Shown here: positions 32,296 through 34,665 of the stretch, piece after piece
How positions within the stretch are numbered: the stretch's first letter is position 1
Layout: every line of letters begins with the position of its first letter
Assembly (NCBI GenBank): GCA_026210745.1
Contig: CP110632.1
Location: forward strand, 2,975,001 to 3,039,000
DNA: 64,000 nt
Source: Exobasidium rhododendri
Lineage: Eukaryota > Basidiomycota > Exobasidiomycetes > Exobasidiales > Exobasidiaceae
Direction: 5' to 3'
The notes under the pieces: model-generated
What the model was told of the DNA's origin: nothing
Database searches by the model: none
Seen by the model: only the letters and a program-made list of their open reading frames with translations
Program-made: the position numbers and the translations under genes

Positions 32296-32750
32296 CTTGG
32301 GTGCTCTGTTTGTGTAAATGAGATGTGAGGTGAGGGAAAATAAGATGCTGGACGGAACGGAGACACCTCTTTATATACGTCTACAGGCAAACGCCATGCT
32401 GTAGCGGCCCATGCACCGCTTCCACTCTCAAAATAGCATCTCGTCCACGCTTTATTCACCGCCACGCACGACAAAAATGACACTTTTCCTTTTTTTGATT
32501 GATGGAAACACGCGCAGCAGATGACAATCTCGACCGCGGAGCATCGTTCGGCACTGCTCTTCGGGTGAATTGGCAAACTCATCGCTCCGCCAAGCAATAG
32601 ACCTGCACCCAGAGCCTCAAGCTTTTGCTACCCTCCCGTCTTTCATTTCTCGCTTCTTATTCGGGCATTTCACTCACCGGGTGTTAGGAAGGGGGGAGGG
32701 GACAATCTTGGCGGCTGTCTACGGAGGAGCGACCTGGAATTGCGACTATA
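32296..32750. promoter_or_regulatory. Divergent promoter, Gly/Gln-rich protein / Lys-rich protein
   Basis: The 455 bp lie between opposite starts. A TATA-like TTTATATA is found at about 32371-32378, oriented for the minus-strand gene about 80 bp upstream of its ATG. Confidence 0.5.
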
Positions 32751-33842
32751 ATGGTCGACAGTCTCTTCGGCTCCTCGTCCTCACCTCTGCGCAACCTCTC
32801 GCAAGAAGATGAAGTGGAATTACCACCACTGCCATTGAGTCCGCTAGGCCCAGCAGCTCTTCGTGATGCGATCGAGGAGTATAGGTCGATCTTGAAATCA
32901 ATCGAGTTCGAGGAGACCACCGATTTGACATTCTCCTTTGCCCACCGAGCGCACCTGGAGCAGCTAGTAGATCGCTACTGGGATATAAGTGTGCAGAAGA
33001 GCCTATCATCTTCAAGAAGTGTTCTCCCAATCGGTGGAGACGTGGAAGGAGCAGCACGATTGCCAGAGACGTCATCAGAGCACAATGCGGAAATCTTGTC
33101 AAAGCTGAAAGAAACGATACTCCTCCATCCATCTTGCCGTGTCTCGCCCCTGCTTTCCCGATGGCCCTTACTGGCTGCTGATGTACCCAAACCGGCCTGG
33201 ACGATTGGGGACGAGGTGCTGGCTGTCATAGAGCAAGAGAGGAGGAAGAAGAAGAGGAGGAGGAGCAAAGACGGCAAGGATGGGAGGAACCAAGAGGACG
33301 CTCGCTTCGAACCCATCGACGTCGAGATGGCCGCTCCTGCTATCACAACCTGCCAACATGCTCTCAATGGCGTCCTGCATGACCTTGCAAGGAGAAGCGA
33401 ATGTCACCCCGTTCGTCCAGATAAGAAGAGTAAGAAGAGGAGTGTCATCATCGATTGGCGAGGAGTTTTGTCTGTTCTGGCCTCTCGTCCTTCCGTGCCA
33501 AGTCCAATCTACCAGGCGACTCAGGAACGACTGCACAAGATCTATGGAGATTCAACGTATGTTCCACCTCCCTCCTGGAAGGCAAACATGGGGATGGGAG
33601 GAAAAGATCACATTTACGAGACGCTGAAGAGCAAGGATCCGATGCCATCAAAGTGGAAGACTGCCAACAACGATGCACCAGCAAAGGAACAGCACAAAGT
33701 GTTGAGAGAGCTGGACAAGACCTTACTCTACCCTCGATCAAAGAAGCGAGCTCGGTACCTACAATCGGCACCAATAGTTGCTGCTCGAAAGACGAAGAAG
33801 AAGAAGAAGCAGACCCGAATAGACCCACCATTTGTAACATAA
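32751..33842 (+). CDS. Lys-rich nuclear-type protein, unknown function
   Basis: A single exon of 363 residues from ATG 32751 (MVDSLFGSSSSPLRNL). The N-terminal third is structured: ELPPLPLSPLGPAALRDAIE, then FSFAHRAHLEQLVDRYWDI. A strongly basic segment (RRKKKRRRSKDGK) around residue 165 looks like a nuclear localisation signal, and another basic run (KKKKKQTR) is near the C-terminus. A middle part (HALNGVLHDLARRSE, then IDWRGVLSVLASRP) and the box YVPPPSWKANMGM may be conserved. The arrangement suggests a nuclear or nucleolar factor, perhaps in rDNA transcription, but I cannot name it. Confidence 0.75.
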   Translation: MVDSLFGSSSSPLRNLSQEDEVELPPLPLSPLGPAALRDAIEEYRSILKSIEFEETTDLTFSFAHRAHLEQLVDRYWDISVQKSLSSSRSVLPIGGDVEGAARLPETSSEHNAEILSKLKETILLHPSCRVSPLLSRWPLLAADVPKPAWTIGDEVLAVIEQERRKKKRRRSKDGKDGRNQEDARFEPIDVEMAAPAITTCQHALNGVLHDLARRSECHPVRPDKKSKKRSVIIDWRGVLSVLASRPSVPSPIYQATQERLHKIYGDSTYVPPPSWKANMGMGGKDHIYETLKSKDPMPSKWKTANNDAPAKEQHKVLRELDKTLLYPRSKKRARYLQSAPIVAARKTKKKKKQTRIDPPFVT

Positions 33843-33986: not shown

Positions 33987-34665
33987 TTACATCTCCAGGT
34001 CGAATTGCTCCTCTCCATGTCCTCCGTTTACTTTGCTGCCGATGTCGTTTCCTCGTCGGCCCAGTGCTGCATTCGGAATTGATTCCGCACTCCTCGTCTT
34101 GAGTGCTTCGTTGGTCCCCTTTGTTGGACTTACAGGACCATTACTGAAGTTGAACGCACTTCCTGGATCTCTAGAAGCTACCGGAGGCGAACGGGAAAGA
34201 GTCGCAGCGGTCGTGCGACCATGGCCGTTGATGCCATTGGCACTCTGACCGCCATTTTCAACGACTTCACCGCCTACTCCTTGACTGCCGTTGACCTTTC
34301 GTCCAAGGACTGCATCCATACTTATCTTTTCCCTACCTTGCTTGCTTTGTGATGCACCATTACCGTTATAGAAGGCCGTCTTATCGGGTGAACGTGAGAT
34401 CTCGGCTGGAATGTTGGGCGGTGTCTTTGAGAGCGGTGAGGAGGCCAGAGAGAGAAGTTGCTCCCGCGAATAGACAATGCGTGATCTGTTGTGGGAGCAG
34501 GTGTTAGCAGTGACCCTGCTCAATGGAAACCTGTACCACTCACCCTCCTGGTGTACTGCCGTAGAAGTTACCGCCTGAAGGAGTGGCCAAGAGCATGTCC
34601 TTTGCTTTGGCCGACAGATGGTCGTTGGGGCCAGCACGACGCATCGGCAAAGGTGATGAAGACAT
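33987..34665 (-). CDS. 4E-BP-like translation repressor with TOS-like motif
   Basis: Exons 34665-34544 and 34485-33987 give 206 residues. The region 28-64 matches animal 4E-BP1 closely: TPSGGNF, STPGGSRIVYSREQLLSL, then SSPLSKTPP. It has the eIF4E-binding motif Y-x4-L-L at Tyr 46, Leu 51 and Leu 52, and proline-directed sites at Thr 28, Thr 38, Ser 57 and Thr 62. In human 4E-BP1 the TOR-controlled sites are Thr 37, Thr 46, Ser 65 and Thr 70, and the motif begins at Tyr 54; offsets from Tyr are -8, +11 and +16 in both. The last five residues FDLEM fit the TOS consensus (human ends FEMDI) used for binding Raptor. The 135-residue Ser/Asn/Gly-rich linker between the two parts is longer than in animals. 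The likely role is to block cap-dependent translation until phosphorylated by TORC1, by inference from the family. Confidence 0.87.

Follow-up and report, generated by a model that had tools for sequence, protein, structure and literature searches.

In animals, 4E-BP is regarded as a brake on protein synthesis that is released by the growth kinase TORC1. A 4E-BP gene from Dictyostelium, febA, has also been published; this gene name was not found among the matches listed in our literature search. Reviews present p20/Caf20 and Eap1 of yeast as the fungal 4E-BPs (PMC7139794, PMC6749009). According to the first, the likeness of p20 to the 4E-BPs of higher organisms ends with the eIF4E-binding motif, and p20 and Eap1 occur only in Saccharomycotina; the second calls Eap1 a homologue of 4E-BP. 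A 2017 review held that no TOS motif was known in fungal TORC1 substrates. This statement was overtaken in 2021, since PMC8542387 reports functional TOS motifs in Psk1 and Atg13 of S. pombe that are read by the Raptor orthologue Mip1 and for which Mip1 Y533, the equivalent of Y475 in human Raptor, is required. The methods of that article include a kinase assay in which rat 4EBP1 is offered to S. pombe TORC1 immunopurified through Mip1. No description of a PF05456 4E-BP in a fungus was found among the matches listed, which cover titles and the starts of abstracts from a collection in which subscription journals are mostly missing. Two surveys, one of fungal Tor genes from 2010 (PMC2997006) and one of fungal eIF4E from 2024 (PMC11791286), gave hits for 4E-BP terms only in their reference lists. 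The Exobasidium protein described here is an uncharacterised member of this known family.

Exobasidium rhododendri is a plant-gall fungus of the Basidiomycota, subphylum Ustilaginomycotina. Within the stretch analysed (the window, 64,000 nucleotides), the candidate 4E-BP gene lies on the minus strand at 34665-33987, where two exons are joined to a predicted protein of 206 amino acids. Exon 1 (34544-34665, minus strand, 122 nt) spans the first 40 codons plus two bases of codon 41 and is followed by a phase 2 intron of 58 nt (34486-34543, minus strand, GTGAGT...ACAG), in which a CTAAC branch-like site was read by eye about 18 nt upstream of the acceptor; exon 2 (33987-34485, minus strand) includes the stop codon TAA. 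There is no in-frame ATG upstream of the predicted start within the start's open frame. The exon join reproduces the motif with Tyr 46, Leu 51 and Leu 52 that the original prediction had placed in a two-exon product of this length. The product is identical over its full length to the NCBI/nr entry 'hypothetical protein CBS101457_006194 [Exobasidium rhododendri]' (P0001), which is another gene model, so that this identity is no transcript proof. The position of the intron is supported by truncated relatives. In six of them (P0003, P0006, P0007, P0008, P0011 and P0021) the called ORF lacks exon 1 and crosses the boundary, and homology starts at the exon 2 boundary; the residue five positions before the Tyr is Arg or Ser in all six and Gly in spliced relatives, as expected because AG|N read through at a phase 2 acceptor would give Arg or Ser. 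Five more (P0012, P0017, P0018, P0020 and P0030) start within exon 2 and are uninformative on the splice. The truncated relatives thus support the predicted exon join and an intron that is probably common to the group. Rhizoctonia-type relatives were also inspected by eye for the same intron: their truncated ORFs start just before the 4E motif as well, but the inferred phase differs, and we do not claim a shared intron there. The gene is the only match to PF05456 in the 17.6-Mb, four-contig assembly. On the plus strand, a 384-codon open frame at 32688-33842 is convergent with it, ends about 140 bases from its stop codon and has no Pfam match at E<=0.001.

That the product is a fungal 4E-BP of the animal type was borne out by the Pfam profile eIF_4EBP (PF05456), which matches residues 27-81 (profile positions 32-90 of 117) with 53.5 bits against a cut-off of 24 (E=2.7e-14); a scan at E<=1 gave no family besides PF05456. 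In a phmmer search against the solved chains of the PDB, the best matches were human 4E-BP1 (E of 2.8e-7 and 3.1e-7), next came fragments of 4E-BP1 (2.6e-5) and 4E-BP2 (0.0085), and another 4E-BP1 fragment, Thor and a designed 4E-BP were below significance (0.11 to 0.44). In the alignment, T37, T46, Y54, S65 and T70 of human 4E-BP1, with the numbering taken from the aligned 118-residue PDB chain, pair with T28, T38, Y46, S57 and T62, the pair T28/T37 being one out of register. Counted from the Tyr, the S/T-P sites of both proteins have the offsets -8, +11 and +16, three identical values as claimed beforehand, and the fourth is -18 in Exobasidium versus -17 in human.

The motifs for eIF4E binding and TOS are short, and for p20 and the metazoan 4E-BPs the likeness is termed convergence in PMC7139794; short motifs may have converged in a disordered protein of Exobasidium, too. 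Composition shuffles of the protein gave Y-x4-L-phi in 5,197 of 200,000 cases and a C-terminal F.[MLI][DE]. in 53 of 200,000, but Y-x4-L-phi with S/T-P at all three common offsets in 0 of 200,000. Against convergence there is also a continuous alignment of about 50 residues above the Pfam cut-off, and early-diverging fungi and amoebae have intermediate-looking sequences. We regard convergence, which the PF05456 profile match strongly disfavours, as extremely improbable and reject it. The Exobasidium protein is confirmed, at the level of sequence, as a true homologue of animal 4E-BP.

All features of the protein are encoded on the minus strand. The eIF4E-binding motif Y-x4-L-L (Y46-SREQLL with Y46, L51 and L52; 34452-34472) has the canonical pattern and is covered by both the Pfam match and the human alignment. 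Around it are Thr28-Pro (34582-34584), Thr38-Pro in STPGG (34552-34554), Ser57-Pro (34437-34439) and Thr62-Pro (34422-34424), the counterparts of human Thr37, Thr46, Ser65 and Thr70, the first being set in TPSGG, not TPGG. The last five residues, FDLEM (202-206; 33990-34004), form a TOS-like, putative Raptor-binding motif. In the joined product and in the alignment, the four sites and this tail follow each other in the order of human 4E-BP1, in line with the original prediction. IPAEISRS (66-73; 34389-34412), within a Pfam match that reaches residue 81, stands in place of human IPGVTSPS, a stretch that presumably binds the side of eIF4E. Farther downstream, the internal motif RDPGSAFNFSNGPVSP (146-161; 34125-34172) is common to many smut-group relatives in the alignment, where it is kept approximately as R-[SD]-P-G-x-A-F-[ND]-F-x-x-G-P-[VI]-S-P (columns about 296-315); it is missing, for example, in the Tilletia rows.

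Three overlapping searches, with 21, 32 and 120 listed of 181 matches, yielded 121 distinct family proteins including that of Exobasidium; the two profile searches scored only those 7993 and 7987 candidates that shared most words. Related fungi with conserved motif spacing were found in all three. Two outcomes that would have spoken against the original prediction, a missing PF05456 match and a lack of such fungal relatives, did not occur. Precomputed PF05456 annotation is present, as counted by eye, in all listed family proteins but seven (P0012, P0017, P0018, P0020, P0030, P0055 and P0061). Among the matches listed, a slightly looser core motif is found in 115 of 121 family proteins, and in these 115 core-bearing proteins S/T-P was counted 111 times at +11, 96 times at +16 and 69 times at -8, with a slight bias toward +11 because, where a protein had several candidate Tyr, one with S/T at +9 to +13 was preferred. 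The tail F.[MLI][DE] is present within the last eight residues of 111/121 listed proteins, own included, whereas 500 shuffles of the C-terminal 60 residues gave it in 0.44 proteins on average and in 3 at most; this conservation is maybe somewhat inflated because two profiles included the tail and the first query was full-length. The ten listed proteins in which it is missing are P0050, P0051, P0059, P0061, P0066, P0075, P0084, P0115, P0117 and P0119, including two models of Dictyostelium discoideum (P0117, P0119). Phe202 is invariant in the alignment from the first search, which comprises 20 of the 21 proteins and omits the partial P0012. A tail that is one residue short, F-x-M-E, was seen at the C terminus of P0057, P0060, P0062, P0063, P0087, P0092, P0108 and P0110; the named organisms among these are amoebozoan (P0108, P0110).

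Near the start of the animal rows there is a stretch resembling I-P-x-[RK]-[RK], which in human 4E-BP1 is the RAIP region. In the place of this RAIP-x2-RR region the Exobasidium protein has LPMRR (residues 6-10; 34636-34650). A strict N-terminal pattern, picked after the sequences had been viewed, matched 30 and failed to match 63 of the 93 proteins left after a completeness filter had set aside 28 of the 121 listed, with a mean of 2.5 and a maximum of 8 in shuffles. That LPMRR stands in for the RAIP motif is suggestive only. RAIP is named in the title of a reference cited by PMC6325617.

The presumed partners are encoded in the same genome. Raptor_N has one match (E=2.3e-62), located in a 1725-codon open frame, and the alignment revealed that R54, R305, R446 and Y475 of human Raptor are kept as R49, R299, R491 and Y520. 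PMC8542387 gives R54, R446, Y475 and an Arg numbered 335 as TOS contacts. In the 1335-residue human Raptor chain, positions 54, 446 and 475 are as reported there, but Lys stands at 335, and the first Arg of DRRTPLGELNW is residue 305; we therefore take 335 as a misprint of 305. An eIF4E locus is also present, in two frames (L004 and L005) that we read as two exons; its DSVEEFW fits (S/T)VxxFW, the docking motif of eIF4E according to PMC1260017. The Raptor residues and VxxFW are permissive rather than specific, because other partners such as S6 kinase and eIF4G may keep them. A second eIF4E-like locus (L003, G000:C1:3282585-3283130, minus strand; PF01652, E=1.2e-49) has SVEAFMSIF in place of (S/T)VxxFW. 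Here, Met appears to have taken the place of the Trp to which eIF4G and 4E-BP dock, and L003 may be a cap-binding protein that escapes control by 4E-BP.

Which kinase governs the protein has to be weighed separately. Its S/T-P sites are S4, T28, T38, S57, T62, S73, S140 and S160, and proline-directed positions of this kind may be targets of CDK or MAP kinases in place of TORC1. According to PMC6682726, CDK1 phosphorylates human Ser83 in mitosis, and Ser73-Pro of the Exobasidium protein is located near the counterpart of this residue. The protein could be a true 4E-BP homologue with eIF4E-binding activity that is ruled mainly by such other proline-directed kinases and has a TOS-like tail of minor importance, which would agree with the fact that every site is S/T-P. 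The retention of the tail in most listed family proteins, while the linker diverges, and the presence of the Raptor pocket residues speak against this reading, and we consider it unlikely. Instead, it is highly probable that the protein is a 4E-BP homologue that inhibits eIF4E and is governed by TORC1 via a Raptor-bound tail. From homology and motif conservation, on which this mode of action rests, we infer disorder, binding, phosphorylation and its order as well as physiological control. The protein would be a small, probably disordered inhibitor of eIF4E. In the unphosphorylated protein, the helix Tyr46-Leu52 and the IPAEIS stretch would cover the face of eIF4E on which eIF4G docks, and cap-dependent translation would be blocked. 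With ample nutrients, the FDLEM at the C terminus would be bound by Raptor (Kog1), and phosphorylation by TORC1 would proceed from Thr28 and Thr38 to Ser57 and Thr62 and release eIF4E.

Among the matches listed, relatives with PF05456 come from further basidiomycetes and from fungi of early-diverging groups as well as from animals and amoebae. The named Basidiomycota in this list belong to Ustilaginomycotina, Wallemia, Ceratobasidium and Rhizoctonia; the other named fungi are Lichtheimia, Rhizomucor, Cunninghamella, Spinellus and Acaulospora, which we take to be Mucoromycota in the wide sense, and Syncephalis (Zoopagomycota); and the named amoebae are Dictyostelium, Polysphondylium and Balamuthia, presumably all amoebozoans. 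One listed family protein carries the label Rmarinus, perhaps Rhodelphis marinus as guessed from the abbreviation, a eukaryote outside opisthokonts and amoebae. Several fungal entries are titled 'eukaryotic translation initiation factor 4E binding...'. At the database level, the family is already annotated in fungi and hence not new there, which makes the novelty smaller than the original prediction had hoped. Ascomycete names are absent from the matches listed (the best 120 of 181 in the largest search), most rows of which have no usable name; a loss of the family in Ascomycota is our hypothesis. In P0032, annotated as 'Regulatory protein suaprga1, partial' of Rhizoctonia solani, PF02330 and PF05456 are found in one protein, probably due to a fused gene model.

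A tree was calculated from 41 of the 121 proteins (40 different), mostly those with an organism name, over 63 columns; it is poorly resolved, with 15 of its 37 inner branches open. P0002 and P0010 were labelled basidiomycete by similarity and P0064, P0107, P0118 and P0120 'other'. A branch (98/96) splits the 19 basidiomycete-labelled rows from all others, animals included. Seven other-fungal rows form one side in 79% of the bootstrap trees and are placed with animals and amoebae, which are not resolved. Fungi were not recovered as one group, the basidiomycete and the other fungal rows not being joined; with 63 columns, the tree neither shows nor excludes a single fungal clade. The best-studied members of the family are from animals, and the position of the other-fungal rows on the animal/amoeba side, with fungi not forming one group, might be read as a trace of recent horizontal transfer from an animal into the fungal lineage of Exobasidium. 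There is no sign of such a transfer into basidiomycetes in the 41-row tree, and the well-supported basidiomycete branch and the spread over several fungal groups speak against it. Even with the short alignment and the many open branches in mind, we reject recent transfer, which has hardly any probability left.

The distribution of the family is in keeping with vertical inheritance and losses. An origin before animals, which had been put forward from this gene alone, is supported by the relatives in Basidiomycota, other fungi and Amoebozoa, and what the gene suggests is an old switch, not a new system. We lean, with less confidence than for the mode of action, towards the view that the complete switch, consisting of RAIP-like N terminus, TPGG sites, eIF4E helix, TOS and Raptor groove, was ancestral to fungi, animals and amoebae, possibly older, and would still be working in Basidiomycota and early-diverging fungi. 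If this is true, p20 and Eap1 of yeast are replacements after a loss, and the standard fungal models misrepresent translational control across much of the kingdom. Since basidiomycetes and early-diverging fungi have a conserved PF05456 protein with a TOS tail, it becomes directly testable how old the TORC1-4E-BP switch is, and the fungal protein is a simple candidate marker of TORC1 output in these groups. The earlier interpretation is supported as far as sequence goes, and TORC1 control and eIF4E binding are what we infer from it.

Compared with the known systems, the Exobasidium protein is most like the metazoan 4E-BP1/2/3 and Drosophila Thor. It shares with them Thr-Pro sites in a TPGG repeat, Y-x4-L-phi, S/T-P at +11 and +16, an IP-containing stretch after the sites and a C-terminal F-x-phi-[DE]-x, perhaps also an N-terminal I/L-P-x-R-R-like region. 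It differs in its core, YSREQLLSLASSPLS instead of the metazoan YDRKFLMECRNSPV, and in its length, since human 4E-BP1 has 118 amino acids and the Exobasidium protein is 88 residues longer, the extra length being mostly unaligned; a long Ser/Gly/Asn-rich linker and the extra internal motif are found only on the fungal side of this comparison. The fungal PF05456 proteins of Acaromyces, Violaceomyces, Ceraceosorus, Tilletia, Meira, Parajaminaea, Kalmanozyma, Ustilago, Melanopsichium, Wallemia, Ceratobasidium, Rhizoctonia, Lichtheimia, Rhizomucor, Cunninghamella, Spinellus, Syncephalis and Acaulospora have the same core motif and, in most cases, the TOS-like tail; many have the Pfam domain and some are named. 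Among them, TPGG repeats are missing in the rows of Ceratobasidium and Rhizoctonia, most of which have FELELE as their last residues, a tail that P0061 does not have. The rows of Lichtheimia, Rhizomucor, Cunninghamella, Spinellus, Syncephalis and Acaulospora resemble animals in their YDR core, and P0115 from Spinellus is without tail. The amoebozoan 4E-BPs of Dictyostelium, Polysphondylium and Balamuthia have the same PF05456 domain and core spacing, but the tail is F-x-M-E in Polysphondylium (P0108) and Balamuthia (P0110) and lacking in the two D. discoideum models. Psk1 and Atg13 of S. pombe are likewise TOS-bearing substrates of TORC1, but they are a kinase and an autophagy factor, not inhibitors of translation. 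With p20/Caf20 and Eap1 of yeast, finally, the Exobasidium protein has the eIF4E-binding motif Y-x4-L-phi and the proposed role in common.
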